Of a stretch of 64,000 bases of DNA, positions 21,632 to 62,681 are shown piece by piece. The stretch covers positions 1 through 64,000 of the IMG/VR virus record IMGVR_UViG_3300033978_000217. One strand, given 5' to 3'. The position numbers and the translations under genes were made by a program. Source of the DNA: a virus. The notes under the pieces are model-generated. The model was not told where the DNA came from. It worked only from the letters and a program-made list of their open reading frames with translations, and did not search any database. The stretch's first letter is position 1. The number at the start of each line of letters is the position of its first letter.

Positions 21632-21660
21632 TTGTCTATTAAATGAAATTTGTATATTTG
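21632..21660 (+). promoter_or_regulatory. Promoter of the giant polyvalent gene
   Basis: TTG at 21632-21634 and TATATTTG at 21653-21660, 18 bp apart. The transcript should start near 21667, which excludes a GTG at 21660 as the translation start and supports the ATG at 21678. Confidence 0.75.
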
Positions 21661-21677
21661 TGCATACAATTTTTCAT

Positions 21678-24600: not shown

Positions 24601-27600
24601 AAGAGGGTACTATCGGTATAGCTAGAAATTCTGGGAAGTTAATAACTACAAACACATTTAACGAAAAAATTGAAGAGGGGACTCAAACTTTATTTACAGA
24701 GGTAGCTTTTGCCGGAGCAACAGATGAGACCATCCAAATATTTGACCCTAAGACAGGGGGCATGGGAAAGACACTTGAGGCTGTTACAGAGGCTTCTGCT
24801 ATAGGTGGGGCAATGGGACTTGTTGGGTCTAGTGCAAAGGGTATAAGAACCTTAATAAAAGAAAAGGCTAACAATACGACATTAAAGTTAACCCAGTTAC
24901 AGATTGGAAGGAAGTACACCGAAATCATTAATGAAGCGGATAGACTTTCAAAAGATTTTAAAGGGTCAGAGGTAGAAAAGGAATACGAGAAGATTAATAA
25001 GGAGTATAAAAAACTAAGTGCTAATCCAAACTTTTTAGAATATGACGACTTAGCTCAGTCAGAAGTTTTGGACAAGTCACTTGCTTTAAACGATTTAAAA
25101 GAGGCTCAAAAAAACTACGAGAGCCAAAATATTGTAGACGTTAAACTTAACAATCAGATAGCAGAAAAAGAAAAAGAGTTAGTCTCTATCATTAACACCG
25201 CACAGGAAAATACTGACGTTCGTAATGATATGAACAAACAGTTGGAGGAAATTGGCGTTAAGTCTTTTACATTAAATGCTAACGGAGAAGTCAACGGAAT
25301 TACGTTTGATGAATGGACAACCTCAGAAGAAGAAAAGGAAAGTACAGAAAAGGCTATCGAAATAATAGAAAAAGTATATAAACCAAAAGCACAAGAAAAT
25401 GCCGTACAAAAGTCAAGCGCAACAGAAGTTCTTCCACGCCAACAAGGCGAAACTACAGAGACAGGGGGTAAACGTGAAGGAGTGGGATCAAGCGTCCAAG
25501 GGCAAGGTACTACCCAAGAAGTTGGGAAAGAAGAAATAGTAGCGACTCCCAAGGAGGCGAAAGAACCGGAGGCGATGCAAACTGACATCGACCAAGTTCA
25601 GCAGTCGACAGGCACTGTTATTAATTTAAACGAGGACGGAACTCTTACTATCAACGCCCCTCAAAGAGGTGGTCAGTCTAAAAAAGCTGCGGCCATTGAG
25701 AACGCTAAACAAGAGTTGGCAAACCTCGGGTATAACGTAGAGAGTCGAGTTGCACAACCTACGCAACAAGAAGTTGCACAAGAGGAAGGACAAAGAGAAT
25801 TTACAGACGAAGAGTTTGGAAATACTATAAAGGAGACTGAGGGTATGGGCGTAGTAGCAGGAACTCAGTCAATGAATGACTTGCAGAAAAGAACTGCTCA
25901 AGATCCTAAGAAGGGTAAGATTGTTGCCCAAGCTTCTCGCGCAGTTAATGCACTCAAGTCCCTCTTCCCGAACATGAACATTGTTGTACACGAAAGTGAT
26001 GAGTCGTACAACAAGGCTATGAACACTTTGGGAGGTACTGTAAATACTCGTGGTCAGTTTGTTTACAAACCTTCAGCGGACGGAAACATCCAAGGTGCTG
26101 TTCACATTAACTTAAACAGAGCGAACTCAAGAACAATTGCTCACGAGGTTGCTCACGCTGCTCTCCTAAAAATGTTTAAGGGAGACGGAAAGGTGTTCGG
26201 AAACTTTAAAGACAAGTTAAAAGACATCGCCAAGGACCAAAAGATGACCATCACAGACAAGGATGGCAACGAGGTAGAAACTACATGGGGAGATGAGGCA
26301 GAGAAGTTATCTAGCAGATATCAGACAGAGGATCAGGCTGAAGAATACTTGGCTGAACTTGCAGGTCTTGTTGCAGAGTTAGATTTAGATAAACCAGTTA
26401 ACAAAAGCATACTTCAGAAGATTGCTGACTTCATCAACAACTTTATCTTGAGTAACCCTCAACTAAAGGCACTAGGAGTAAAGCCAATCAGCGACACATC
26501 TTCTGCGGAAGAGGTGTTAGAGTTCTTTGACACTCTTGGTAAGAAGATATCGAGAGGAGAGGAAATTAAAGAATTTGAAGATGTAAACTCTCTTGGTCTT
26601 AGTGGTGTAGTTAATGTGTCAGAGGGTGTTAAGTCTAAAAGTTCAATAGACTCTGGTGAGATAAAAAGGTTTCCTGTCAACCCAAACACAAGGGTTGAAG
26701 AGGATGTGCCTTTAGAAAGATTCAATGGGAAAAGAGTTAACCTAATGGAGTCGGATCGAATGACAGGCGGTTACATAAGCGACTCTGAAGGCAACCCCTT
26801 GTTCAAATTTTATGGAGGCGTATTCTACCCTATAATTACAGGAAAGTGGTGGGCCTCAAGAAACAAAATAAAGGCAAAAGGCATCGCTGAAAACGCGAAT
26901 AAAAATAGAGACAAGGACGGATATATTTACTCCGCGCCTATGATCGGGTCTGACAAACAGCATATGAGCAACACAGATATGTTGACTGTAACTGTTGAGC
27001 TAATGAAGTTTGACGCCAACTCAAAAACATCTAAGGTTAAAAAGGCTGACGTTATAAGTTACATAGACAAGGCTTTTAGCAACAAGAGTGTCCAGGGTAA
27101 AAAGGCTGTTGTGAAAACCGTTTTGAAAAAGTCAAACAATATAAACGAACTATTTAACGAGTTAGAGTTTGTGTTATTCCAAGAGGGGGATAAGATATTA
27201 GACAAGAAAGGAAGTCCGATATTAGACGAAAATAAAAAGCCGATATCAAACTTTACGTTTGAGGAAAGACTAGCTATAGTTAATTCTATTTTAGGAGACC
27301 CGAAAGTAAAAGAGGCGAGATTTCCTTCAGCAGGGTCTATATCAGAGGCAGCTAAAAGGTTTGAAGAGCCTATTACGGCAAAGGCTAATAAGATAGGTGA
27401 CTTGGTTACCATAATGAGAACTAAAGGCACTTTACAATATAAAACATCCGAGGTTAATGATGACTTTTATCACAAGTCTTACCCGGAAGAAATTTATGCC
27501 GTTAATGAGGACGGGTCTCCTGCCGAGATTGAGGTCTATGTTTTAGAAGGTGCTTACAGCATGAACGATGTTTTACCCTCTTTAACTCAATCTAGTGGAA

Positions 27601-30600
27601 AAGAATTTACTTGGGACGAGTATTTAGAGAAACACAAGTCTGAAAATTTAGCAATAGCTCAATACAACAGGACAGCCAAGTTAAGTAGTGCGTCTGGTGA
27701 AATCAAGACAGGCGTTAAGACAAAGTCTCAAATGGATGACGTTCAGCGTACAGCGCAGATGTACAACATGAACGATCAGGGATTCTTCCCAAAGAACGCT
27801 GACGAGTATAAGATCAACAGAGACTTTGAAAGATTTGGCTTAAAGGCAAAGAGAGCAAACGCTTCTAGTTGGGGACCGGGTTCTCTCTACCTAGTTAACC
27901 AAGCAGGAAGAAAGGTTAATCCATTTAACCGACCTAAAGGTAAATCTCAGTTGTCGGATGATGAAGTTGATCAAGTTTTGAAAACATATCCTGATCTAAA
28001 AACAACTCAAATTGTAGACGAGAATGGTAATCCTTTAATAGTTCGTCACCAAAGTCAGACAGATATTGATATTAATAATATGTCTGATAAAAACAAGGGA
28101 GGTATAAGAGACATCCTAGGTAGAGAGTCTAAAGATAAATACGGAATATATTTTACTACAGAAAGTGCAGAGTCGTTGAAAGATATGTTTGACAAGACTG
28201 GTAAGGGTAAAACATATGAAGTGTTTTTAGATGTCAAAAATTTATTAGACTTAGGAGACACTCATTACTTTAATTTTGAAACAAACAAGCCTGAGCAACT
28301 ATCAGATGCTGTTGTAAAAAATTCTGATCAATATTTAGATGTAAGAGATATGTCTAAAAATGATGTAGATAGAGTTAAAGCTTTGGGATATGATGGTATC
28401 TGGGGTAATAGAAACGAAGGTAATTATAAAGGAATAGACGAGATTGTTGTATTTGACAAATCTCAAATCAAGCCTGTTCCAACAGGAATAGTTGCCAAGT
28501 CTCAACTTTCAGATGAAGAGTCAGAGCCAAATCAAATCAGCAGTAGTGAACGTAAAATTATTGCAGATAGAGTTAAGGCTGAAATTAAAGCTGCTCTTCA
28601 AGGCCGTAAGGAAGGAAAAAAAGAGGGGATAGAACAAGCTAAAGAACAAGCTCAAAAAACTATCGACTCTTTAAACAAGAAATTAGAAGAGGGCAAGATA
28701 ACTAAACAAGAGTTACAAGACAAAATTAAAGAGCTTGGATACAATGTGAGATGGCAGGCGGCTGAAGCAAGACTCGCTGGGGAAATAGAAGGTAAAAAAG
28801 CAGGTCGTGCAGAGGGTCGTAAAGAAGGTATCAAAGAGGGGGTAGAAAAGGGTAAAGAACAAGCGCAAAAGACTATCGATGCGTTGAATAAAAAACTTGA
28901 AGAAGGTAAAATAACTAAACAAGAGTTGCAAGACCGAATCAAGGAGCTTGGTTACAACATTCGATTTGAGGCAGGTGTTGCTAGACTTGCAGGAGAGAGG
29001 ACTGGAAAGTCTATGGGTAAGAAGTTCGGAGAGTTTGTTGGTTACTTTAAAGGACTGAAGGCAGGAAGAACAGAACAAAGAGGTTTAGGTGCTTTGGTAT
29101 CTGAATATATCAAAGATGTAGTAGACAACGAGTTTGGTAAGAAGGGTTCTATCTCCCCTGCCACATTGAAGTCTATCTCTCGCAGAGCAGCTACCATCTC
29201 TAACCAAAAACAATTGGATGCCTTTGTTTCTTACTTAGATAAGATCATTGCCAACAGAAGATTGGCAGAAGGAATCAATGAAATCCAAAAACAACAAAAG
29301 AAGTTGTTGAACAAGATTGGTTATCAGTATACAACACAAATGAAGCAGTTTGCGAAGTTTGATTTGTATACAGCAGATGGTGACTTGGCTTTTGACATGA
29401 ACACTTTGGAAGAATACTTAGACGCTCTTCGTGATTTAACTAGCGATAGAGTTCCTAAGATTGGCAAGATGATGGAATTGTTTGATGAAATGTATGACAT
29501 CAATCTACAGAACCAACCTGCACCTAAGACTGCAATTGACTCACTTAATGAATGGCAAGTAGCAGTAAATAAGTTGTTTAACACCGCTAAGGATATCATC
29601 GTTGAAAACAACGGAGTAGTTGACCTAGCCGAATCGTTTCAAAACTATAGAGCGTTTAAATCTAATGTAAAGAAATACACAAACGCACTTGATGAGTTAT
29701 TAGTCACAGGCATGATTAGCGAATCTGACTATGAAAGGATGTTTAATGATGTTATTGAAAAATCTGCTGTTACAGATACTTACGCTACTGAATTCCAAGA
29801 CCAGATAGATGGGTTGAAGAAGATGCTGATAGACGGTATCACAGACAAAGGTGACTATGGGTTAATGGATTCAATCAAAGACTGGTTGAGCAACTCTCCT
29901 AACACATTTACGGAAAATCAAAAGAAATTGATTGACCAGTTAATGAGAGCAAAACCTGATAATTTGATGACGTTAAGTCTTGAAGACCTTGACTTGTTAA
30001 ATCAAGTTACTGCTCAAATTGCAGAGGCTGGATTTGTTGACGAGAAGAATTTAAGAACCTTGTTGGATCGTGCAGAAATCAGAGGCAACGAGATCGGAAA
30101 GAGTTTGGCTGAACAGGCTAAACAAACAAAAGGCTTGTTTAGAAAAGATAGATACTCTAACGCTAAGAACGGATTCATCAACATGATGAATGACACCTTA
30201 GGAAAGAGTGTTGTATTCTGGGAGTCTCGTCTAGGAATGAAAGAGAACGGTCCGTTTAGAAAGCATTTAGTAGACCCAATCGTAAGGGCAATTAATGGAT
30301 GGGAGAAAGACTCTCAACGAATTCTAAAGGACTACCAAAAGAATGTTGAGAAACTTAGAAGCCGAAACATTTTAAAGAATGTTCCGGGTATTGGTAAGTT
30401 TATCAACAAAACTAAAATTGAAAAGTTCAAACTAACCTCTGACGGAAATTTAGTGCCTGACGGAACAATTAAAGTTTCAAAAGACGCTTATGACAGAGTA
30501 ATGATTGGAGTTGTTGGCCACATCCTTGACAACGCTTGGAACGCCAAACAGAAAAAGAAAACTGTAAGCGACTGGTTAGGTAAGCAGATGCTTAGTGCTA

Positions 30601-33194
30601 AGGTGAGAAACAACATGGCTAACGAAGACGTTAACGAGTTGGATATTGTTAACAACATCTACAACGACCTTAAAGATTCATTCCCTGACGGAAATGGAGG
30701 CCTTGACCACATGGCAGTTTTAGAAGCGTTTGAATCTGATCCAACTTCTGTCCTTACAGGTAGTCAGTTGGAGTATTATAACATTGCAAGAAGCACTTTA
30801 CAGGAGGCTGGTGAGTACATCAATAGTGCTAACGCAATTAGAAACAAGCAGCACGAGTTGAATCCTTACTATATGCCTAGGCAGTCTGTAGGAGTAAGAG
30901 AAGGCACTCTAACATCTACGGATATTGCGTACAATAAAAATGTGGGTGAGGCAATAAGATCAGGGGCGTCTTACCAACGTGTGTTGCAAGTTCCTACAGA
31001 GGCAATTCGTTATAACGTAGACAGGCTTGTGATGACCAATGTTCATGAAGGTTTGAGAGACTACTATTTGACTGAGGCTAAAAGATATGTGAGAGATGTA
31101 TTCTCTAACGCTAAAGAAAACGCTAGTCAAAACGATGCGGTTATGTTAGACAACTTAAAGCAGTTGAGTGACACTATTGCTCCGTTTGCTTTAGCAAAGT
31201 CTGAAAACACATTTGGATTGTCAAAAATGATGGGTAAGTTCTTTGTTGACGCTTTGATAGGTGTTGTAAGAACTCCAATAGAATTTACTACTAACCTTAT
31301 CAGTTATGCGGTAGGTAATAGAAGTTTAAAGTCTTTGACATTGCCTTTCACTCCAAAAGAAAAACAAGAGACAGATAAATTATTGTCTGAGTTTGATTCT
31401 TCAGTTCAGTTTACAGGATTGGAAAGAAAAGTTAAACTTAGTGGCAAGAAAGGTATTGACGGATACTTGGACAGAGAAAGTAACTTCGGTTTGCTCAACA
31501 AGTTCCTCAACAACGTAACTGGGTTTATGAGAAAAGGGGAATGGAAGTCTCAGTTCGAAAGAGAGTTTGAAAGAAATACTGGAGAGAAGTTTAGTTACGA
31601 GAAACATTTCGTAAAAGAAAAAGGAAAGTATTACGATGAAATGAGCAAAGCTGCTTCGGATGCTGACTTCAGAATGAGAAGAATTATGAAGGGTGGTAAC
31701 AAAGCAGAGCAAAGACAATTCATTGAATGGTTTCCTTTTGTAAAGTCCGCAAGAATTTCTGCCGACTCTAAAATGGCACCGTTTGTAGGTATGTTCTCTG
31801 GATTTATTAACCACGATGCTGACAATCTTAACATCGGTTTAAGAAAGACTGTTACTCAAAAAGAAATAAAGGATGGTTTAACTCAAGCGTTAGGTGCTTA
31901 CGGAAGGTTGTCTTTATACCCTGTGTTGATGGTTATAGGAAAGGCTATTGCTAATTTAAACTTGGGTGACGATGATGAGAAGAAAGAGGCTCAAGAAACA
32001 TTAGACTCATTGAAGACACCTCAAGGTTGGTCAGACATGGCTTTGTTTGCCGCTAAACAAGTTGGGGCAACATTTTTTGGAGGTAAGTATGCGGCAGGTG
32101 GTAAGATTATAGGAAACCTACTATTAGACGCTGCCTATACTTTAAGTGATGACAGAAGACAGAGAAGACTAATAGAAGACACAATGAGAGATTTATACTT
32201 TGTAGATCCGATTGACTTTTATGACTTACCTTCTGAAAAGGATGACATGGCTTTGCAAATAGCTGCTAATCTTCAACCTATCGTGGGGATGGTCATTGAC
32301 GGTGTTTCTGACTTTGTTAACGATGTCAAGAACAAAGGCAGAGAGCAAGTTACTCTTTATGACATCTACGAGTGGACTCAACAAACTGAGGAGGGTAAGC
32401 AATGGATGTACATGGCAAATTCTTTAGCTACATTAGGTCAAACTCTAACAGTCATATTTACACCCGGAGCAGTACCTTTTATTGATGACTATGTTCGTTG
32501 GGCAGAAGATGAGTTGTCTCAAAAAGAGCCAAATGAAAACACTCTATACAAAACTCCTGGTGGTGAAGTAGTAGACATAAGAGAACTATTTTTAGATGAC
32601 AGCCAAAGACTGCCTATTAATACTCCTGGGATAAGCTCAAGAGAGAGAGATAAGTATTCTATATTGGCAACTGAAAAGTTTAACAAGGCAATTGAAAAGG
32701 AAGGAAAACAAATAAAAGGCTTATTCCCTGACGAAAAGTATTTGTACATAGACTATCTCGCAGACAAGGCTAAATACGAGGCTGGTTCTGAACTAGGATT
32801 TCCGACTGAAAGATGGAGTGAGGCTGAAGGGGAAATGGTTTCAGGAGAACCTATTCCACCAAGTGAGAGAGATAACACGCCAGAAAGTGAGGTGACGTTA
32901 GAAAAACTTCATCAGGAAATTATGAAAGGAAAACAACTTAGCTTTGTTCAAAACATCAAAGAGAAGAGAAAAGCCGAAGACTATATGTTCAAGGAGTTTG
33001 ATAAAAATCCGAACATGGAGAACGACTATAAAAACGCTACTATTGGTGGAAAGTTAGGTGTGAGAGAGTACTTCAAGGCAAAATACTTATACGACAAATA
33101 CAAATTAACCGAACCTCCTGTTTCATCTAACTACTTTATAAAAGAAAAAGGTCAAATAAAACAGGTTGAAAGTACGCCAACAGAAGAAAATTAA
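21678..33194 (+). CDS. Giant polyvalent internal protein (metallopeptidase, ART-like, repeats)
   Basis: 3838 residues from the ATG at 21678. Visible parts: residues 1-200 acidic and disordered; coiled-coil charged regions at 560-730; a Gly/Ala-rich hydrophobic stretch at about 775-945 (GGVVPDLAAVYFTGGGAGFA) likely to insert in membranes; a zincin site HEVAH at 1489-1493 with a probable third ligand near E1560; a strand-rich domain near 1660-1780; an ADP-ribosyltransferase-like domain at about 2100-2270 (IVRHQSQTDID, YGIYFTTESAES, YDGIWGN and DEIVVFDKSQIKP); a 71-residue tandem repeat at 2309-2450; then over 1300 helical residues. This mix of peptidase and ART on a huge internal protein is the 'polyvalent protein' design known from phages and mobile elements. 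It is probably ejected with the DNA to modify host proteins. No RNA polymerase DxDGD motif was seen. Confidence 0.8.
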   Translation: MANLQDLFNEIQADSRISNPPTFEEFQSKMEDPAFAERVNEILGRNGYDVNAYEGLKKKEESMVESAPLSQSESEQPSETTEPTQMGGIEPVGEVVSEDPQAETEEDLDPLNADLSAYNLEIKTPLSLNQNAPIQAAPQQQNVTEGSVMNESLDTPKPVNKYKNNDIISLAKNAKNKFISKHIDPIFSQAKQATAQFDQEIKPEEEAISQVEEGGPGDPKRKDVKDAATSLYNEMDDLNYKTASRVLGDTRVLGVKMDGDNYEVVFANNKMGGGDQGRSYKGKVGDVTWEGYISNAINSSDLYKDDESWEDLKSAVITQDTYSPELEGKKLSPSFNNNLASHKSKYFPQGSFGQITGTVTIPKEKNKEEEASFGTDLKRFFEKVKVKVKTQNIISKEDEERKEYNIAEETIPKTEYVMDTEQTFYNSLNNTPETNAIMQENALSFSDILLPSSKNKETVMEGIKLFLAKAGYDENEINQKLGVIYKQMLRDARYHAAEQYIRHEIENGNKTYKFQDIDRLNQAKEKGIDELMGDESLVTQSDKNFVSNVWDISLSDYINHYDAKATVRGRNMDIKNIPGKVSAYTARMNELEAQIEAEKVKLQIPSKEQLSETVKGLKSTKDKIDAYDAQLSKMEEDMNSLLVDQDGQKYYKDEASKTIYEELVAQSEKILNERNALVEQNKAGSQDIEKVNQFQNNISRQLKEYEALRKKLNYYDDDPDLLAMRGLSNTLTSIQNYESDKSAGIKNDLYDFQDYREKVRQDDEIARKEAEDDNMLEAGGKGLVGGFANALIGISKTGMYLGQVLTDEDSDQKEWTGGDELLAATSQLQENVGQWASNPYYEKWGVNWFVNGVGGVVPDLAAVYFTGGGAGFAELATTRGAIGAVGKIATSPTTVYFTVRSTGDYAERLQKAGYSAGEAFLGGGLIAGTEAMLESLLPSFFNTTESISIKSFWKKTIEEGIAKKLAPEVIARQLKEGTIGIARNSGKLITTNTFNEKIEEGTQTLFTEVAFAGATDETIQIFDPKTGGMGKTLEAVTEASAIGGAMGLVGSSAKGIRTLIKEKANNTTLKLTQLQIGRKYTEIINEADRLSKDFKGSEVEKEYEKINKEYKKLSANPNFLEYDDLAQSEVLDKSLALNDLKEAQKNYESQNIVDVKLNNQIAEKEKELVSIINTAQENTDVRNDMNKQLEEIGVKSFTLNANGEVNGITFDEWTTSEEEKESTEKAIEIIEKVYKPKAQENAVQKSSATEVLPRQQGETTETGGKREGVGSSVQGQGTTQEVGKEEIVATPKEAKEPEAMQTDIDQVQQSTGTVINLNEDGTLTINAPQRGGQSKKAAAIENAKQELANLGYNVESRVAQPTQQEVAQEEGQREFTDEEFGNTIKETEGMGVVAGTQSMNDLQKRTAQDPKKGKIVAQASRAVNALKSLFPNMNIVVHESDESYNKAMNTLGGTVNTRGQFVYKPSADGNIQGAVHINLNRANSRTIAHEVAHAALLKMFKGDGKVFGNFKDKLKDIAKDQKMTITDKDGNEVETTWGDEAEKLSSRYQTEDQAEEYLAELAGLVAELDLDKPVNKSILQKIADFINNFILSNPQLKALGVKPISDTSSAEEVLEFFDTLGKKISRGEEIKEFEDVNSLGLSGVVNVSEGVKSKSSIDSGEIKRFPVNPNTRVEEDVPLERFNGKRVNLMESDRMTGGYISDSEGNPLFKFYGGVFYPIITGKWWASRNKIKAKGIAENANKNRDKDGYIYSAPMIGSDKQHMSNTDMLTVTVELMKFDANSKTSKVKKADVISYIDKAFSNKSVQGKKAVVKTVLKKSNNINELFNELEFVLFQEGDKILDKKGSPILDENKKPISNFTFEERLAIVNSILGDPKVKEARFPSAGSISEAAKRFEEPITAKANKIGDLVTIMRTKGTLQYKTSEVNDDFYHKSYPEEIYAVNEDGSPAEIEVYVLEGAYSMNDVLPSLTQSSGKEFTWDEYLEKHKSENLAIAQYNRTAKLSSASGEIKTGVKTKSQMDDVQRTAQMYNMNDQGFFPKNADEYKINRDFERFGLKAKRANASSWGPGSLYLVNQAGRKVNPFNRPKGKSQLSDDEVDQVLKTYPDLKTTQIVDENGNPLIVRHQSQTDIDINNMSDKNKGGIRDILGRESKDKYGIYFTTESAESLKDMFDKTGKGKTYEVFLDVKNLLDLGDTHYFNFETNKPEQLSDAVVKNSDQYLDVRDMSKNDVDRVKALGYDGIWGNRNEGNYKGIDEIVVFDKSQIKPVPTGIVAKSQLSDEESEPNQISSSERKIIADRVKAEIKAALQGRKEGKKEGIEQAKEQAQKTIDSLNKKLEEGKITKQELQDKIKELGYNVRWQAAEARLAGEIEGKKAGRAEGRKEGIKEGVEKGKEQAQKTIDALNKKLEEGKITKQELQDRIKELGYNIRFEAGVARLAGERTGKSMGKKFGEFVGYFKGLKAGRTEQRGLGALVSEYIKDVVDNEFGKKGSISPATLKSISRRAATISNQKQLDAFVSYLDKIIANRRLAEGINEIQKQQKKLLNKIGYQYTTQMKQFAKFDLYTADGDLAFDMNTLEEYLDALRDLTSDRVPKIGKMMELFDEMYDINLQNQPAPKTAIDSLNEWQVAVNKLFNTAKDIIVENNGVVDLAESFQNYRAFKSNVKKYTNALDELLVTGMISESDYERMFNDVIEKSAVTDTYATEFQDQIDGLKKMLIDGITDKGDYGLMDSIKDWLSNSPNTFTENQKKLIDQLMRAKPDNLMTLSLEDLDLLNQVTAQIAEAGFVDEKNLRTLLDRAEIRGNEIGKSLAEQAKQTKGLFRKDRYSNAKNGFINMMNDTLGKSVVFWESRLGMKENGPFRKHLVDPIVRAINGWEKDSQRILKDYQKNVEKLRSRNILKNVPGIGKFINKTKIEKFKLTSDGNLVPDGTIKVSKDAYDRVMIGVVGHILDNAWNAKQKKKTVSDWLGKQMLSAKVRNNMANEDVNELDIVNNIYNDLKDSFPDGNGGLDHMAVLEAFESDPTSVLTGSQLEYYNIARSTLQEAGEYINSANAIRNKQHELNPYYMPRQSVGVREGTLTSTDIAYNKNVGEAIRSGASYQRVLQVPTEAIRYNVDRLVMTNVHEGLRDYYLTEAKRYVRDVFSNAKENASQNDAVMLDNLKQLSDTIAPFALAKSENTFGLSKMMGKFFVDALIGVVRTPIEFTTNLISYAVGNRSLKSLTLPFTPKEKQETDKLLSEFDSSVQFTGLERKVKLSGKKGIDGYLDRESNFGLLNKFLNNVTGFMRKGEWKSQFEREFERNTGEKFSYEKHFVKEKGKYYDEMSKAASDADFRMRRIMKGGNKAEQRQFIEWFPFVKSARISADSKMAPFVGMFSGFINHDADNLNIGLRKTVTQKEIKDGLTQALGAYGRLSLYPVLMVIGKAIANLNLGDDDEKKEAQETLDSLKTPQGWSDMALFAAKQVGATFFGGKYAAGGKIIGNLLLDAAYTLSDDRRQRRLIEDTMRDLYFVDPIDFYDLPSEKDDMALQIAANLQPIVGMVIDGVSDFVNDVKNKGREQVTLYDIYEWTQQTEEGKQWMYMANSLATLGQTLTVIFTPGAVPFIDDYVRWAEDELSQKEPNENTLYKTPGGEVVDIRELFLDDSQRLPINTPGISSRERDKYSILATEKFNKAIEKEGKQIKGLFPDEKYLYIDYLADKAKYEAGSELGFPTERWSEAEGEMVSGEPIPPSERDNTPESEVTLEKLHQEIMKGKQLSFVQNIKEKRKAEDYMFKEFDKNPNMENDYKNATIGGKLGVREYFKAKYLYDKYKLTEPPVSSNYFIKEKGQIKQVESTPTEEN
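28602..29020 (+). repeat. Tandem 213-base (71-residue) repeat inside the polyvalent gene
   Basis: Unit 1 starts at 28602 and unit 2 at 28815; both encode GRKEG, then EQAQKTID, then LNKKLEEGKITKQELQD and IKELGYN. Synonymous codon differences show that it is not a very recent duplication. Confidence 0.85.
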
Positions 33195-49717: not shown

Positions 49718-50149
49718 TTATTTGTTTAGTGAATGAAATTCGATTGTCTCAATTAGGTATTCTCTCTCGTCCTCTCTCACATATTCCCAATCTCCGTTAC
49801 CATTGTCGAAGGACTCGCATATTTCAGCAAGTTGACCAATTGAAGTCACTTCTCCCCAACACCATCCGCAATCGAATGCGTAATGTCTCTCTCCGTTAAC
49901 ATCGAAGTAAACACCACTACTGATAACTACCTTCTCCCCATCGTACATCTCATACAATACACCATCCTCGAACGATAGGATTGATTCCGAGTCTTCGTTT
50001 TGGAACATCCAATCTTGGTCGAATATCTTCTTAATCGTTGTCTCGCTGAAGTAAGGGACTGACCATCCGTTCCAATACATATTTGAACTATAACCTACGA
50101 AGGTGAAGTCGGTGTTTCCACCATCAATTGAAAATACTGCTTTTTTCAT
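49718..50149 (-). CDS. Acidic tryptophan-rich protein, operon member
   Basis: 143 residues (MKKAVFSIDGGNTDFTFVGY at the start; YAFDCGWCWGEVTSIGQLAE in the second half). The opening 'F-S-I-D-G-G-N-T' recalls the phosphate-1 loop of actin-like/ASKHA ATPases, but no second motif supports that, so it may be chance. Strongly acidic. Leader contains copy B of the repeated element. Confidence 0.57.
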   Translation of the reverse strand: MKKAVFSIDGGNTDFTFVGYSSNMYWNGWSVPYFSETTIKKIFDQDWMFQNEDSESILSFEDGVLYEMYDGEKVVISSGVYFDVNGERHYAFDCGWCWGEVTSIGQLAEICESFDNGNGDWEYVREDEREYLIETIEFHSLNK

Positions 50150-50182
50150 TGTCTTAAATTGTTAAATTATTAGTGTTTACGC

Positions 50183-50221
50183 ATTCCCCAGGAAAAGCGC
50201 ATTTTGAAATTTTTGATTGTC
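50183..50221 (-). repeat. Leader element copy B
   Basis: Same blocks as copy A (49306-49343): ATTCCCCAG, AAAAG, ATTTTGAAA, TTTT, TGTC, with few changes over 39 bases. It lies 34 bases upstream of the start at 50149. Confidence 0.75.
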
Positions 50222-50227
50222 TTTTCT

Positions 50228-50386
50228 TTACTTTTTCAGTCTTACGATTAAGATGATTGCTGATGCAAGGAACACAACGAATGCTCCAAAACACAAGTAA
50301 ACATTTTGTAGGCACATTGAGATTAAGATGACAAGTGTGCTATAAATCATTAAGAAGAATAGAACGATTTCGATTTTTTTAAGCAT
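50228..50386 (-). CDS. 52-residue two-helix membrane protein, first in the operon
   Basis: Starts at the ATG at 50386. MLKK is followed by IEIVLFFLMIYSTLVILISM and, after CLQNVY, by GAFVVFLASAIILIV, ending RLKK. Two membrane helices with positive ends inside. It opens the leftward operon that ends with another small membrane protein. Function unknown. Confidence 0.65.
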   Translation of the reverse strand: MLKKIEIVLFFLMIYSTLVILISMCLQNVYLCFGAFVVFLASAIILIVRLKK

Positions 50387-51123
50387 TTGATTTATGTATT
50401 AAGTTTAGCAGAATGTGTAGACTCGAACTACACGATGCATATTGTATATACACCTCTCCAAGCATTCTAGAATGTGTTAGTGTTACGTCAACAAAGGCAT
50501 ACTTTCCATATGTTATTCCCTTGGTTCTCGCTGATGCGATTCAATCTATGATGTCAAAGAACTACGGACTTTATACGCTTTTCCGTTATGTGCGTCCCAA
50601 CTTTACAACTTTCACTTCCTCTATTAAGTTTTTACTCCGTTCGTATATTCTACTCGTTGTACTCAAGGATGTTGGTTTCGCCTCTTACTATTAATATCAG
50701 TTTGAATATTGCTCTCTATAATTCACGCGATAGATATTCCCATATGTATGCGCTTATAACTATTCAGTTGCGGAGCAAAACCAATCTTTCAATTTTCGTA
50801 ATTCCCGTTGGAATCGGATACAAACATCGTTATAATTTTTAGATGAAATTCACATAATTGCAACAAATTTCATCATTCTTGGAATCCTAAAGGTAAAAGC
50901 CTGAAAATTAGCATTTTAACCCACAAAAAAAAGTGTGCATTTTGACTGTCGGAGTGCATTTTCAAAGGAAATTGACCATATGAAAGGCATAAAAAGGATT
51001 TAGGATGCACCATAAATTCTCCGCTTATTTGATGTGAAATTGTGCTGAATGAATTGTTGGTTGAATTGTGCCTATATGAAATGTTGCTGACCTTTCGACA
51101 AATGCCTTGTGTGAGTTACGAAC

Positions 51124-51206
51124 ATAGTTACTAACAACGGAAGCGGAGATGGTGCTAGTTAAATTGAGGGACATATGCAATAGGTTTGCTGAATAGTTAC
51201 TAACAA
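51124..51206 (+). repeat. Perfect 14-base direct repeat
   Basis: ATAGTTACTAACAA at 51124-51137 and 51193-51206. Confidence 0.85.
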
Positions 51207-51369
51207 AGTTATTCACATATAATATTACGGCACGACTGCTGACCTTACGCGATTCGTGACGGCAGTAGAGCAACGATATTGTGCTGACCATAGTAAACCA
51301 TCACTATTCGAATTGCGTTGAATTTTGCCTATTGTATGGAAGCGAGGGAAGGAATCGAATTGCTGAAAG

Positions 51370-51425
51370 CCTGATCGATTAGGTTTCGCCTGGCGGGTGG
51401 GGTCGCAAATCCTGATCTCCTGATC
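51370..51425. repeat. CCTGATC cluster
   Basis: CCTGATC at 51370-51376, 51411-51417 and 51419-51425; the reverse form GATCAGG is at 51674-51680 and twice at 44536-44558. A 16-base GGGTGG-x-GTCGCAAA word occurs at 51395-51410 and 51638-51653. Confidence 0.7.
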
Positions 51426-51769
51426 GGCCCGGTGGTGGGATCATGGTTGGTAAACCCCCTTCCGCTAACATCTCGCCCCCTTTTAGTTTTGGATTGGGTT
51501 ATCCCTTGATTCCCTTTTTACGGTTATATAAAGATACGAAATGTATTGTAAAGATTATAATAATATGGGCCGAAATGCGGTTTGTCCACCGTTGAGTATC
51601 CCTATTTTGCTGAGTTTGTAATTTTTGGAATGGGGGGGGGTGGTGTCGCAAAATGCGTTTCGTGCATAATGCTGATCAGGTTGTGGGGACCAGGTCTAAA
51701 AAAAATTTTTTTTCTGGAGTGTCGACTATGTGTCTACAGTTGGGTAGTGGTACTAACCAGTTGGTTTTA

Positions 51770-51777
51770 TATATTTG
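51770..51777 (+). promoter_or_regulatory. -7 element of the basic-protein gene at 51794
   Basis: TATATTTG, 16 bases before the GTG start; no TTG at the usual distance. Confidence 0.5.
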
Positions 51778-51793
51778 TAAAAAAAATATAGTC

Positions 51794-52150
51794 GTGAAAA
51801 CAAACAAGAACAAAAACGCTCGTATGGAGAAGAGGGCAGATCGTTTGACTGCTAAGGCTAACAAGATCACTGGCAAGGGGTCTACCACGCTTAACCTGGT
51901 TTCTGGTAACAAGAGTGCCACTATTAAAACTTCTGCTAACACTAAGAAGTCTGACCGTTTACTTAACCGCGCTAGTGTGTTGAGGGGGAAGGCTATCTCA
52001 GACCCTCTTGAGAAGGCGAGATATATTTCAAACTTACCAGAGGGTACTTTGAAGAAGAAGTTGACTAAGCAAGGTCCTATAGACAAGATTCATGCTAGAA
52101 GGGTTGTGAAGAAGTTTAACAACTCTCCCATTGGTCCTATAAAGCGTTAA
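51794..52150 (+). CDS. Basic small protein
   Basis: 118 residues from a GTG at 51794, placed 16 bases after the -7 element; an ATG at 51824 is the alternative. Very rich in K, N, R, S and T (KTNKNKNARMEKRADRLTAK), with SDPLEKARYISNLPEGTLKK in the C-terminal half. It lacks the RKNLLGR motif but shares the composition of the basic cluster at 53-59 kb. Probably binds nucleic acid or the virion DNA. No family recognised. Confidence 0.6.
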   Translation: MKTNKNKNARMEKRADRLTAKANKITGKGSTTLNLVSGNKSATIKTSANTKKSDRLLNRASVLRGKAISDPLEKARYISNLPEGTLKKKLTKQGPIDKIHARRVVKKFNNSPIGPIKR

Positions 52151-52483
52151 GTCGGCTACAGATTGTAACCACCTTGATGGTGTCAACAAAATGGTCTTAA
52201 TTCGGAAAACTTCCGAGTTTGGCCATGTTTTGTTACGGAGTTTGGCAAGGGGTTGGGGATTATTTTCCACGATAAGCCTTATTCTGGTGACAATTATCCA
52301 CATTAGTTTGTCTCAAAAGTTTACTATAATTGCGACAGATGTGGTTTATAACATCTAACTCATATTAAAGTGTGGGATCTCTGAACGTAAGGCTATATTT
52401 TGACTTTAATGACTGAGGAGTCATACTATAACGTGACTTATGTGTCACAATTTTTCGAGTTTTTGTGACTTGTAAGGGACTTT
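52151..52483. other. 333-base non-coding region between convergent genes, with a DnaA box
   Basis: Contains TTATCCACA (52294-52302), the consensus DnaA box, and the related TTTTCCACG at 52264-52272. Inverted repeats are TGACT/AGTCA (52410-52423) and GTGAC/GTCAC (52433-52448) followed by five T, a possible terminator for the gene ending at 52150. Confidence 0.6.
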
Positions 52484-52960
52484 TTATTTCTTTCTACTCG
52501 CCTTGACTCTTTTCTTGTCTGCCTTGAACTGTTCGGACTGGGTGTAGAGCTTACCAGCCTTCTTGTCCTCTCGGTACATTTTGTTAGCAGACTTCTTTGC
52601 GTCACCTTCCTTCCACTTCTTTCCGTAGGCGAACTTCTCTGCTCTCTTGGCTGACTTGAATCCGACTACCTCTCCTCTCTTCAATGCCTCATCGTATGCC
52701 TCTTGAGGTTTATCCTCAAGGTTAGTCCATGTCTTCCCACCATTGTTAGGGAAGATGGTTGGGTTTACTTCGTATGGTCTCTTTCTGTTTCCTGTTTCTC
52801 CAGAGGAGAGGAGGACAGTTGAGGAAGGTCCTTGTGCGTTCTTCATGGGAGTAACCCCTTTTCTCATGTCTCTGAGTGCCTTTACCTTGCGAGAGACGAT
52901 GAGTCCATCCTTGGTTTTCGGTTTCTTCGGTCCTGGGTTGAAGTAGTCTTGTGCTTTCAT
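52484..52960 (-). CDS. Basic phage protein, virion-associated candidate
   Basis: 158 residues. NPTIFPNNGGKTWTNL, then EAYDEALKRGEVVGFKSAKR and AEKFAYGKKWK follow an order seen in structural or transglycosylase-associated phage proteins ('N-P-T-x-F ... A-x-x-x-A ... G-x-x-x-x-F ... A-E-x-F-A-x-G-x-W-K'). The C-terminal 40 residues are lysine-rich (NKMYREDKKAGKLYTQSEQF). A near-promoter TATATTTA precedes its start immediately after the terminator at 52972. Function not established. Confidence 0.65.
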   Translation of the reverse strand: MKAQDYFNPGPKKPKTKDGLIVSRKVKALRDMRKGVTPMKNAQGPSSTVLLSSGETGNRKRPYEVNPTIFPNNGGKTWTNLEDKPQEAYDEALKRGEVVGFKSAKRAEKFAYGKKWKEGDAKKSANKMYREDKKAGKLYTQSEQFKADKKRVKASRKK

Positions 52961-54892: not shown

Positions 54893-55159
54893 TGTTTTTA
54901 GTTTTAAAGGTTACACCCGACTTTAGCTTGGTGTTGTGTTCAAGCACTACCTTAGCAATCTTAAACAGCTACTTGCAATGACTTGTACTTCGTCTGCAAG
55001 GGACTCTCAAGTGTGCGTTGAGTTCGTCTACACCAAGATAGTACAGCTGGTACGATTCAAGAGGCTTTGAGGTACAATTATTAAAAAATGCTGTTAGTTG
55101 TACTCAAGGGTAACATACACCACATCTATTATGAGGAGACGCTCTGTGTGGCTGCATTT
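54893..55159 (-). pseudogene. Possible decayed, frameshifted gene
   Basis: No intact reading frame. Reverse-strand fragments in changing frames look like one broken protein: SYQLYYLGVDELNAHL, then ESLADEVQVIASS, then LFKIAKVVLEHNTKLKSGV. Each switch needs a one-base change. Alternatively this is plain spacer and the fragments are chance. Confidence 0.3.
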
Positions 55160-55279
55160 TTATTTTTCCTTCTTATTCATTTGAGAGAGTACCCACGTCA
55201 AAACCTCTAACTTAATCTCATCAGAGATATCTTCGCTAAAGGTCTTGCGGAGCATTCGCTCATAAATCAGTTGCTTCAC
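55160..55279 (-). CDS. Possible 39-residue protein
   Basis: GTG start at 55279 inside the end of the upstream gene, stop at 55160. KQLIYERMLRKTFSEDISDE and VLTWVLSQMNKKEK read like a helical phage peptide. No other support. Confidence 0.4.
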   Translation of the reverse strand: MKQLIYERMLRKTFSEDISDEIKLEVLTWVLSQMNKKEK

Positions 55280-55532
55280 TATCTTCACTAGAAGGTGCTG
55301 TTTTTATTGCGTTAAGGAAAGCCACAGCCTCTTGTTGGAACTCCGGATCTTCTCTCATAGCGTTTAGAGCATCGTTTGCAACAGAGGTCAACTCTTGAGT
55401 TAGTCCTGTGAAAGATTCTAGAATTTCCTCGTTGGTTAACTCCATGTTGAGTGCCAACAACTCCGTTAACAACTTGTGACACGAGAGAGCAAATTCTTGC
55501 ATGGTCTCGTTCGTTACTCTTAATTTTTGCAT
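55260..55532 (-). CDS. Small acidic helical protein
   Basis: 90 residues from the ATG at 55532; the GTG at 55550 is the last base group of the promoter element and is excluded. Helical throughout (CHKLLTELLALNMELTNEEI; LTSVANDALNAMREDPEFQQ), with an acidic end (SSEDSEATDL). Function unknown. Own promoter 18 bases upstream. Confidence 0.65.
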   Translation of the reverse strand: MQKLRVTNETMQEFALSCHKLLTELLALNMELTNEEILESFTGLTQELTSVANDALNAMREDPEFQQEAVAFLNAIKTAPSSEDSEATDL

Positions 55533-55549
55533 TTTGTGTATTATTTTCA

Positions 55550-55578
55550 CAAATATACAAAAGACATTAAAATAACAA
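55550..55578 (-). promoter_or_regulatory. Promoter of the gene at 55260-55532
   Basis: Reverse-strand TATATTTG (55557-55550) and TTG (55578-55576), 18 bp apart. Confidence 0.75.
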
Positions 55579-55602
55579 TTAATAAGTTTTCAACAATACG
55601 GA

Positions 55603-55764
55603 TTATAGATTTGGAGGAAGTTTGTATTCCTCTCCGCTGTCCTTTGCCTTTTGATAGTCGTTGACAATGTCACAGAGTTTGACTTTCTTCCCAACCTCGG
55701 GACATCCAAGTTGGTGAGCGTTGTAGTACCCACAGATAGGGCATTTATACTTTGGCTTTTTCAT
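55603..55764 (-). CDS. 53-residue zinc-ribbon-like protein
   Basis: Start at the ATG at 55764, overlapping the upstream stop in ATGA. KYKCPICGYYNAHQLGCPEV holds C-x2-C and later C/H residues, a likely zinc site; the rest is charged and ends KLPPNL. Probably a small nucleic-acid- or protein-binding factor. Confidence 0.62.
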   Translation of the reverse strand: MKKPKYKCPICGYYNAHQLGCPEVGKKVKLCDIVNDYQKAKDSGEEYKLPPNL

Positions 55765-55910
55765 GATCCGCAATATAAGCACGTTTCGTCATCATCCTCA
55801 ATAGAATGTGCCTCATTATTGATACGGATTGCTTCCATTTCGATTTGAGCGTCTGTCCACTCTGGGTGGAAGGCTCTGATTTGTGACTTGAGGAATAGTA
55901 ACTCGTTCAT
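55761..55910 (-). CDS. 49-residue acidic protein with CxxC end
   Basis: MNELLFLKSQIRAFHPEWTD, then AIRINNEAHSIEDDDE and CLYCGS at the C-terminus. ATGA overlap with the zinc-ribbon-like gene; TATCTTTG lies 20 bases upstream. The single C-x2-C could complete a metal site in a dimer or with the partner protein. Confidence 0.58.
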   Translation of the reverse strand: MNELLFLKSQIRAFHPEWTDAQIEMEAIRINNEAHSIEDDDETCLYCGS

Positions 55911-55930
55911 AGACTTAAATTTTAGGTACA

Positions 55931-55938
55931 CAAAGATA
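55931..55938 (-). promoter_or_regulatory. Leftward -7 element
   Basis: Reverse-strand TATCTTTG, 20 bases upstream of the start at 55910; divergent partner at 55959. Confidence 0.45.
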
Positions 55939-55958
55939 CGGAGAGAAATATATTTCTA

Positions 55959-55966
55959 TATCTTTG
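55959..55966 (+). promoter_or_regulatory. Rightward -7 element
   Basis: TATCTTTG, 20 bases upstream of the ATG at 55987. Confidence 0.5.
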
Positions 55967-55986
55967 TTTAGATAAAAAATTACACT

Positions 55987-56124
55987 ATGGCAAAGGTTCA
56001 GTCTACAAGCAGTTTTAAGAAGAAGCCGAAGGTTAGAAGACCCGGTGTTATCGCAAAGACGAAGTGTTCTTGCTCAAAGAACTCTAAGAACTATATTAAA
56101 TCATATAGAGGTCAAGGGCGATGA
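55987..56124 (+). CDS. 45-residue basic protein
   Basis: Starts at the ATG at 55987; stop overlaps the next start (ATGA). STSSFKKKPKVRRPGVIAKT, then KCSCSKNSKNYIKSYRGQGR. The K-C-x-C-x-K-x-S-K-N pattern is basic and cysteine-containing; proteins of this kind sit beside small virion proteins in several phages. Function unknown. Confidence 0.65.
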   Translation: MAKVQSTSSFKKKPKVRRPGVIAKTKCSCSKNSKNYIKSYRGQGR

Positions 56125-60013: not shown

Positions 60014-60211
60014 TTAATATTCAGGGTCAGTTGTTGTGCCTACAGTTGCTGGATCTACATACACAGTATCCCTGGGTATGTAAGTGGCCTTAAACATTTG
60101 GTGGTCTTCTTTTTGTATTGGGTGGTAGTTACTTATGTCGCAACTTAACGCTAGGCAAGTTATGATAACCGACAATAAGAATATAAATAATTTTCTACTT
60201 TTTGTTGACAT
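60014..60211 (-). CDS. Phage lipoprotein
   Basis: 65 residues from the ATG at 60211. Basic start (MSTKSRK), hydrophobic core (LFIFLLSVIITCLALS) and a lipobox LALSC, so it should be lipidated and exported. The mature part is about 43 residues, polar, with PRDTVYVDP and an acidic end. Candidates: outer-membrane spanin partner or superinfection-exclusion lipoprotein. It overlaps the methyltransferase 3' end by 17 bases. Confidence 0.7.
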   Translation of the reverse strand: MSTKSRKLFIFLLSVIITCLALSCDISNYHPIQKEDHQMFKATYIPRDTVYVDPATVGTTTDPEY

Positions 60212-61715
60212 CGTTCTGTTGATTAATTGTTTCACTTACTTCTTGAATTCTCTTTCCAATCCACGCCATTACAGGAACAGCCATTGAGTTGCCCATCGCC
60301 TTGTACCTTGGTCCATCTGGAGACTCTGGTTTTTTTCGGTATGGGATGTTTGTGAAGTTATCAGGGAATCCTTGTAACCTCTCGCATTCTACAGGAGTTA
60401 GCCTACGAACTCTTGCGTTCGTAATTGTACCACCAGTGTGGTTGATATCCGAAGCGGAGGACGATAAGGTTTGAGAAGTCTTCTCGTTGATGCTCATATT
60501 GTACATATCAACGGCAACAGGAAATACAGCGTGTGGACCTTTAGCAACTAATGTTGGAGAAGTTTCAGACTCTTCAATTTTAGGTTCGTATTGAGCGTTC
60601 TGACCTTGGTTGAAAGAAGCTCTATCCAACACAATTGTTTTATTTTCGGAAACGACTAATCCCCTACCATCAGCAAGATCTTCATTTCCAATGCCTTTGT
60701 AATCTCTTGCTAAAAGAGTACCTATTGTTTCAGACTCATTTGGTGGTAACCACTTTGTTTCAGAAACTATTGGTGTGTTACCACCGCCTGTACCCCAACG
60801 AGATGTTACTGTACTACTTGTCTCTCCCATTTCTTTAACTCTGCTATCGTTAGGATGATTTTCGTAAACATCTTTTTGAATTACCGCAGAGAAGTGTCCT
60901 TTGTCGGGCATATACTGATCGTGACAACGAGTAGTTAAACTTGCGGCTGTTTGACCTCCGTCCCACCATGAGTCTGGTTCTACAACAGACACAGTTGATC
61001 TAACATCACCAACGTCAAAACAATTAAGAGTGTTTGACACATCGTCTTCAACCCATGTCTCTAATCCGTCTTTGGTTGTTGCTCGGCTTGATTTACGGTA
61101 TGTAGTAGAGCTTCCTTCAATCGCTCGGGTAACTTTTTCCCTCTTACCTCTGCTCTCCGTAATATTCCTGCACAGGCTTTCTGACTCAAATAGAACCGCT
61201 GCGGCAGGTCTCCAGTCTCCAAGATATCCGATAAGAAAGACTCTTCTACGTCTTTGTGGGACTCCAAAGTGTTGAGCGTCAAAAACTCTGTAGGCGAACC
61301 CATACCCGAGTTCCCCCAACGCCCCGAGGAGGGAAGCAAAATCTTTTCCTCCGTTACTTGACAAGACACCGGGGACATTTTCCCAAACGATCCACTGGGG
61401 TTTTGCTTTGTTAGCAATGCGACAGAATTCAAGGGCCAGGTTGCCACGAGGGTCTTCCATTCCTTTTCGGAGACCTGCAACTGAGAATGATTGGCAGGGA
61501 GTTCCTCCAACGAGAACATCGATAGTTGTTTCATTAAATATAGGGTTTGAGTGAATTAAAGTCATGTCCCCTAAGTTGGGAACTTCTGGATAATGGTGCT
61601 GTAGGACAGCTGATGGGAAGGGTTCTATTTCTGAAAACCATTGCGCCTTCCAACCTAGTGGATGCCAAGCCATCGTAGCGGCTTCTACTCCCGAACATAC
61701 TGATCCGTATCTCAT
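60195..61715 (-). CDS. C5-cytosine DNA methyltransferase
   Basis: 506 residues. Motif I YGSVCSGVEAATMAW at 3-17 (AdoMet binding), motif IV GGTPCQSFS with catalytic C74, motif VI WENVPGV at 111-117, motif VIII FGVPQRRRRVFLIG at 150-163, and C-terminal RRLTPVECERLQGFPDNF and YKAMGNSMAVPV (motifs IX-X). Between VIII and IX lie about 250 residues, a long variable target-recognition region. It probably methylates phage DNA to escape host restriction. A 157-residue frame is nested inside it. Start overlaps the upstream stop in ATGA. Confidence 0.93.
   Translation of the reverse strand: MRYGSVCSGVEAATMAWHPLGWKAQWFSEIEPFPSAVLQHHYPEVPNLGDMTLIHSNPIFNETTIDVLVGGTPCQSFSVAGLRKGMEDPRGNLALEFCRIANKAKPQWIVWENVPGVLSSNGGKDFASLLGALGELGYGFAYRVFDAQHFGVPQRRRRVFLIGYLGDWRPAAAVLFESESLCRNITESRGKREKVTRAIEGSSTTYRKSSRATTKDGLETWVEDDVSNTLNCFDVGDVRSTVSVVEPDSWWDGGQTAASLTTRCHDQYMPDKGHFSAVIQKDVYENHPNDSRVKEMGETSSTVTSRWGTGGGNTPIVSETKWLPPNESETIGTLLARDYKGIGNEDLADGRGLVVSENKTIVLDRASFNQGQNAQYEPKIEESETSPTLVAKGPHAVFPVAVDMYNMSINEKTSQTLSSSASDINHTGGTITNARVRRLTPVECERLQGFPDNFTNIPYRKKPESPDGPRYKAMGNSMAVPVMAWIGKRIQEVSETINQQNDVNKK
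61061..61534 (-). CDS. Nested out-of-frame ORF inside the methyltransferase
   Basis: 157 codons in another frame of the same strand, wholly inside the methyltransferase gene. The peptide has features of a real family seen inside such genes elsewhere: SGRWGNSGMGSPTEFLTLNT, then DILETGDLPQRFYLSQ and KACAGILRRAEVRGKKLPER. It begins MKQLSMFSLEEL. Whether it is translated is unknown; the conserved look could partly follow from conservation of the methyltransferase frame. Confidence 0.4.
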   Translation of the reverse strand: MKQLSMFSLEELPANHSQLQVSEKEWKTLVATWPLNSVALLTKQNPSGSFGKMSPVSCQVTEEKILLPSSGRWGNSGMGSPTEFLTLNTLESHKDVEESFLSDILETGDLPQRFYLSQKACAGILRRAEVRGKKLPERLKEALLHTVNQAEQQPKTD

Positions 61716-62174: not shown

Positions 62175-62681
62175 TTATTTTTGAATTTTAAGTTTAAAGT
62201 ATAGGTCTGAAAGTGCTTCTTTAGGTTGAGGATATCCGTTCTCTTCCATCTTCTCAACAAAATATTGTATCAACATCCTATCCTTCCAAGATGTCTCAAC
62301 AGTGTTTTCAAATGTTCTAATACCATGCAATACTGTAGCGTGGTTTTTATTTTCAAACTCACTACCAATGCCTGCCAATGTAACCGGCAATGTTTTGTGC
62401 ATCATCCAATAAACTAGTTGTCTGTAAAGAATATTCTCTCTCTTTCTAGTTGAATCACCTGGCGAGTTATAAACTTTCTTAGCGATATCTTTCATTAGGT
62501 CAATATAGGTTCTCATATTAGTCCCTATTGACACGTTGTAAATCACATGGCTAATTTTATCAGCTTCCTCCTTTAAATGAGGAACGAAGATTACCAAGTC
62601 ATGAATAAACATTTCTTTTTTATCGTTCGGCACATACTCTAAGATATCACCAAACCGAACTTTTCTTTCTTTTACTTCCAT
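62175..62681 (-). CDS. DnaA domain IV-like DNA-binding protein
   Basis: 168 residues. Residues about 77-128 (STRKRENILYRQLVYWMMHK, then LPVTLAGIGSEFENKNHATV, LHGIRTFEN) reproduce the DnaA C-terminal domain: R-x-x-x-x-x-R-x-x-x-x-[YM] helix, S/T-L-x-x-I-G helix and the signature [RK]-[DN]-H-[AS]-T-V that reads the DnaA box. No ATPase domain. The N-terminal 75 residues are helical and unrecognised. It probably binds DnaA-box-like sites at the phage origin or competes with host DnaA. It precedes the primase-helicase gene in the same operon. Confidence 0.85.
   Translation of the reverse strand: MEVKERKVRFGDILEYVPNDKKEMFIHDLVIFVPHLKEEADKISHVIYNVSIGTNMRTYIDLMKDIAKKVYNSPGDSTRKRENILYRQLVYWMMHKTLPVTLAGIGSEFENKNHATVLHGIRTFENTVETSWKDRMLIQYFVEKMEENGYPQPKEALSDLYFKLKIQK

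Follow-up and report, generated by a model that had tools for sequence, protein, structure and literature searches.

A repeat-bearing intergenic region as a candidate replication-control site of an uncultured tailed phage

Results

Layout and conservation of the probable control region

The longest intergenic region of the genome, delimited from the list of gaps between genes and from alignments of relatives, occupies positions 50150 to 52483 of the window, that is, of the whole 64,000-nucleotide stretch analysed here (positions 1 to 64,000 of IMG/VR record IMGVR_UViG_3300033978_000217). This control region of 2.3 kb is flanked by minus-strand genes (49718-50149 and 52484-52960), and its non-coding part consists of 1,644 and 333 bp on either side of one accessory plus-strand gene (51794-52150). 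The latter, present in the nearest relatives only, encodes a 118-aa basic protein, lies between the conserved blocks that we denote M2 and N, and is immediately preceded on the same strand by TATATTTG (51770-51777), a Bacteroidetes-type -7 element (TAnnTTTG). The segment with the TGCTGA hexamers described below forms the middle of the region.

In nucleotide alignments, the region is 99% identical to that of the closest relative (L002), 85-88% to L075, about 81% to L074, about 74% to L072 and about 72% to L067; more distant relatives, such as L084 and L068, align in its core only. The region is conserved where the flanking genes have turned over, and its gene content varies. In L069 and L070, M1 and M2 are separated by a PAPS-reductase-like gene (phrog_424) and a 62-aa Xre-type regulator, an operon of a PAPS-reductase-like and an Xre-type HTH gene occupies the same place in G003, G005 and G007, and a protein combining GIY-YIG and HTH_3 domains, the GIY-YIG match being weak, is encoded to the right of block N in L068 and L070. 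Because different genes are found between the same blocks in relatives, the non-coding blocks are the backbone and the genes are the inserts; the region thus takes up small accessory genes, some of which bring promoters of their own, between conserved blocks. The GIY-YIG and HTH_3 protein adjoins the hairpin array in several phages and is possibly a homing element. A conserved short peptide at 51566-51620 was considered and rejected on reading the alignments: the frame is open in several relatives, the start codon is missing in some, and other relatives carry a different gene there.

The phage and its replication genes

The complete record comprises 65,817 bp and repeats its first 127 bases at its end, which makes the genome a closed circle of 65,690 bp. 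Genes for a terminase, a portal protein and a primase-helicase identify a tailed phage. The nearest isolated relatives of the terminase, all remote, are mostly phages of Flavobacterium, Cellulophaga, Maribacter and Tenacibaculum, and the Bacteroidetes promoter form TTG-N-TAnnTTTG precedes a number of the phage genes; the host is probably a marine member of the Bacteroidetes. The phage family is known from metagenomes alone. Besides the primase-helicase and a DnaD/O-like initiator, the genome encodes, on the minus strand (62175-62681), a 168-aa protein with the C-terminal, box-binding domain of DnaA (PF08299, 39 bits, above the cut-off). This protein is 67-95% identical in ten relatives and is a core gene of the phage family; it and the DnaD/O-like protein are candidate initiators that might bind the repeats described below.

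TGCTGA hexamers

A reading of the sequence alone had reported eight plus-strand TGCTGA hexamers here and taken them for iterons or protein-binding sites of an origin or master control region. All eight are present (51043, 51085, 51187, 51237, 51282, 51361, 51608 and 51670, together spanning 51043-51675), three of them extended to TGCTGACC (51085, 51237 and 51282), and so are the accompanying features: the 14-bp direct repeat ATAGTTACTAACAA at 51124 and 51193, the 16-base word GGGTGGKGTCGCAAAW at 51395 and 51638, the CCTGATC words, the G9 run and the A8T8 tract (51698-51713). In 3,000 dinucleotide shuffles of positions 50901-51713, TGCTGA occurred 0.32 times on average and at most 4 times, against the 8 observed; as any hexamer of more than two different letters reached 8 copies in only 1 of the 3,000 shuffles, the cluster holds up when the choice of hexamer is corrected for. 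After correction for scanning 65 kb it is marginal (about 0.03, by our own estimate). The best 713-bp interval elsewhere in the genome holds 6 copies of some hexamer, and TGCTGA itself reaches 5 copies in a coding stretch of 640 bp at 19.8 kb.

The expected conservation failed for half of the sites: four of the eight occur in some relatives, and the remaining four are seen outside the window in no more than a single, near-identical contig. The hexamer at 51670 is preserved in most relatives, those at 51237 and 51282 in L002, L075 and L074 (and also in L094, judged by their spacing to the 12-mers described below), and that at 51187 in L002, L074 and L072; those at 51043, 51085 and 51361 are shared solely with the near-identical L002, and that at 51608 with no relative. 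Retention of a hexamer tracks retention of the surrounding sequence. The spacing is irregular (42, 102, 50, 45, 79, 247 and 62 bp), no extended consensus surrounds the sites, and none of the eight matches a weight matrix built from the 12-mers, which rules out degenerate 12-mer iterons. Because the hexamers are kept only with their surroundings and share no motif with the conserved repeats, outside which they lie, they do not form a maintained repeat family and are in this sense no iterons; the cluster is largely a feature of its own lineage and not an initiator-binding repeat.

12-bp repeats and blocks M1 and M2

The repeats that do have the arrangement of iterons, with several almost identical copies all pointing the same way, are the 12-mers AGTTACKAACAW, which form two tandem pairs about 80 bp apart. 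The first pair, AGTTACGAACAT AGTTACTAACAA, lies at 51114-51137 and the second, AGTTACTAACAA AGTTATTCACAT, at 51195-51218, both on the plus strand; the 14-base repeat noted earlier is part of these pairs, which have no other mismatch-free occurrence in the genome. Judged by its letters, the 12-bp repeat resembles DnaA boxes, and the second unit of the second pair contains the DnaA consensus TTATTCACA (51209-51217). Both pairs are conserved in clade-1 relatives, and the 12-mers occur in full or in part in L002, L074, L072, L075, L067, L093, L094, L097 and L111; they are absent from clade-2 relatives. Alignments revealed no conserved RNA fold on either strand over 51,019-51,316, which covers the 12-mers and most hexamers, so that this part looks like a DNA element.

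To its right, M1 and M2 form two conserved GC-rich or hairpin blocks (51,395-51,722) with the word GGGTGGNNTCGCAAA in common. M1 (51395-51530) consists, in the alignments, of a GGGTGGGGTCGCAAA word and AAACCCCC, followed by GGATTGGG..CCC..ATTCCCTTTTT. M2 (51531-51722) contains an AT-rich imperfect inverted repeat (arms at 51544-51560 and 51616-51632), a second GGGTGG.GTCGCAAA word (51638-51652), AATGCG..GCATAATGC and the A8T8 tract.

Block N and the twin box

Block N (52,150-52,368) contains a TCGGAA..TTCCGA hairpin (52202-52216), followed by what we call the twin box: two plus-strand copies, GATTATTTTCCAC at 52258-52270 and GACAATTATCCAC at 52289-52301, whose DnaA-type cores are exactly 31 bp, or three helical turns, apart from start to start. 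Copy 2 with the next base makes up a canonical DnaA box, TTATCCACA (52294-52302), and copy 1 deviates from the TTWTNCACA consensus by one or two mismatches. Of the four perfect TTATNCACA sequences in the genome, two lie in the control region (52294 and 51209). Further inverted repeats follow at 52309-52356, namely TGTCNCAA..TTGNGACA, imperfect in the window, and AGATGT-GGTTTATA-ACATCT. The stem letters of block N covary between phages (TGTCGCA/TGCGACA, TGTCACA/TGTGACA and TGTCCCA/TGGGACA).

Two exact copies of the twin box at the 31-bp distance were found in 36 contigs, with one match in each, and in all 12 other records that were searched in full the pair occurs once per genome, always 31 bp apart. 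It is present both in the 66-kb relatives and in contigs of 97,988-122,614 bp whose terminase is unrelated or only remotely related. No DnaA-like gene was found in the latter phages, and M1, M2 and the tRNA-like element described below are missing from the examined stretches of these contigs. No isolated phage gave a credible match to block N. That the genomes of unrelated phages each carry this direct repeat a single time, with a fixed three-turn spacing, suggests a host factor common to them, and the DnaA-like core of the twin box makes host DnaA the first candidate ligand; because DnaA-like proteins were not found in the 98-123-kb phages, the phage DnaA-domain protein cannot be the common ligand. 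Four of the large contigs (L141, L142, L145 and L146) also share with the 66-kb family a non-coding array of short hairpins, and the AGATGT..ACATCT hairpin has its loop in either orientation, as GGTTTATA or as TATAAACC.

A tRNA-like RNA

Near the left end of the control region, the minus strand encodes a putative tRNA-like RNA of 67 nt (50403-50469), indicated by covariation and by matches to a covariance model. Its 7-bp acceptor stem starts with a U-G pair and is followed by an unpaired D-loop-like stretch, one variable hairpin that replaces the anticodon arm, and a 5-bp T-arm with a TTCGANT loop; there is no anticodon. Compensatory changes affect 9 of the 17 pairs, and 95.7% of the alignment cells are paired. 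The covariation score is 0.53, compared with 0.25 in shuffles, none of the 500 of which reached it, and no more than 0.19 after sliding. The covariance model detects the element once per source, at the same intergenic position, also in L068, L069, L070, L071, L072, L074, L075, L084, L094, L102, L149, L178, L179 and L180.

No Rfam family was matched by the window copy, ARAGORN identified no tRNA gene in the element, and positions 50403-50469 failed a tRNA cloverleaf test, with three helices, no D-arm and no conserved anticodon. The closest likeness is to the tRNA-like domain of tmRNA and to mascRNA, with which the element has in common the acceptor stem, the D-loop-like stretch, the TTCGANT T-arm and the lack of an anticodon; the copy of one relative gave weak Rfam matches to mascRNA-menRNA and the tmRNA T-arm, all below the gathering scores. 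Unlike these RNAs, the phage element has a short hairpin in place of the mRNA domain, a U-G first pair, and a CTAAC-like tail instead of CCA. The covariation support for it is good, and among phage RNAs it would be unusual. An attachment site (attP) derived from a host tRNA was considered and rejected: one variant of the element is absent from bacterial genome contigs, and no bacterial genome searched yielded a relative of the terminase.

Discussion

Our leading, though tentative, interpretation of these sequence features is that the hexamer segment is the middle of the single cis-acting control region of the phage, which would most likely contain the replication origin. The origin or master control function proposed in the sequence-only reading is partly supported: it fits the region, which is the largest intergenic one and carries conserved repeats and DnaA-box-like sites, but not the hexamers. 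In favour of an origin are the DnaA-domain core gene and the DnaD/O-like and primase-helicase genes of the genome, along with the 31-bp phasing of the twin-box cores between flanking inverted repeats. In such an origin, host DnaA, the phage DnaA-domain protein, or both would bind the 12-mers and the twin box, host DnaA being proposed because the twin box also occurs in phages without a detected DnaA-like gene; the neighbouring AT-rich stretch might then open, and the DnaD/O-like protein and the primase-helicase could be loaded at the opened site.

The expectation that the segment would coincide with the minimum of cumulative GC skew failed: in G000, G001, G002 and G004 the minimum is found near 65.69/0.16 kb, some 14 kb away, where divergent genes meet at a mostly coding junction, and the third-position skew beside the control region points, if at all, to a terminus, gene strand being a confounder. 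No convincing iterons were found at this minimum or in or near the DnaD/O-like initiator gene. The stability of the least stable 60 bp of the region (at 51506) is low but outside the 15 lowest values of the genome, whose least stable DNA lies elsewhere, and we count the lack of 12-mers in clade-2 relatives against an origin as well.

Among known systems, iteron plasmid origins likewise combine same-strand direct repeats, nearby DnaA-type boxes, an AT-rich stretch and replication genes on the replicon; the phage region differs in having two 12-mer pairs only, no adjacent initiator gene and large hairpin blocks between the elements, and its origin function is a candidate one. With bacterial oriC it shares perfect TTATNCACA boxes (52294 and 51209), the 31-bp phasing and variation between relatives at the W position of TTWTNCACA, whereas block N has two conserved boxes only, with no neighbouring dnaA and no skew switch.

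The main rival, which we regard as possible but more doubtful, is that the region is not an origin but a place of transcription control and an insertion hot spot, in which phage or host regulators act on operators next to promoters and terminators, the twin box and the inverted repeats being operators. It accounts for the accessory cassettes between the blocks (the 118-aa gene, the PAPS-reductase-like and Xre operon, and the GIY-YIG and HTH_3 gene) and for the TAnnTTTG promoters ahead of cassettes, and palindromes with covarying arms suit dimeric regulators. However, the twin box is a direct repeat of fixed spacing, present once per genome and common to unrelated phages whatever the neighbouring genes, and sigma-70-like and terminator-like matches in the region are no more frequent than in shuffles. 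A long structured non-coding RNA, such as GOLLD or ROOL, running through the region, with the hexamers within its fold, and ending at the tRNA-like element, seems improbable. Next to the tRNA-like element, itself a supported RNA, it draws on M1, whose plus strand folds better than alignments with shuffled columns (51,390-51,544, z about -3), and on a consensus of -40.5 kcal/mol for M1/M2. Yet only 4 of the 76 M1/M2 pairs show changes on both sides, none of them in the main inverted repeat, the M1/M2 fold and the tRNA-like element lie on opposite strands, and neither a GOLLD- nor a ROOL-like RNA emerged, given these few compensatory pairs and the lack of an Rfam match; over the hexamers, we rejected such an RNA for the absent conserved fold at 51,019-51,316 and the little covariation.

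That the TGCTGA hexamers are binding sites of a phage protein, iterons recently gained in this lineage, we hold to be very unlikely. Their excess over shuffles, their common strand and the recurrence of several sites near the 12-mers in L002 and, in part, in L074, L075 and L094 would agree with it, set against their irregular spacing without an extended consensus, the missing conservation of half of them and the lack of any match to the 12-mer matrix. Least probable is a DNA packaging or recombination site: the map is circular, the contigs of relatives end at different places on it, and short inverted arms enclose loops in either orientation, a pattern that recombination or template switching would produce, but the region lies about 17 kb from the terminase gene and no phage end was found within it.

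Starting from the favoured reading of a control region with an origin, a bolder one, which we consider rather unlikely, is that unrelated marine phages, of 66 and about 120 kb, exchange a mosaic origin cassette that relies on a host factor and is joined in the 66-kb family by a new class of small tRNA-like RNA. Such a cassette would comprise the twin DnaA-type box at 31 bp and an array of covarying hairpins, and the anticodon-less RNA might act as a decoy or a processing signal. Literature searches listed no title or abstract on a phage element of this kind. To our knowledge, replication origins have hardly ever been established for uncultured marine phages, and the region supplies defined, testable candidate origin sites for a phage family seen only in metagenomes. 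It is notable less for its hexamers than for the tRNA-like RNA and the twin box, a fixed 44-bp element common to phages of different kinds that points to a common host factor.

Other features of the genome

The structural half of the genome encodes a 3,844-aa protein (21660-33194, plus strand) without a PHROG match. A C-5 cytosine DNA methyltransferase (Pfam PF00145) is encoded on the minus strand at 60195-61715, and 357 bp at approximately 61,167-61,523 are 76% identical to the methyltransferase gene of a Roseobacter phage, which suggests transfer between phages. Finally, positions 55070-56000 are 99.6% identical to L004, in neighbouring sequence that is mostly 75-97% identical, reflecting either recent exchange or strong constraint.
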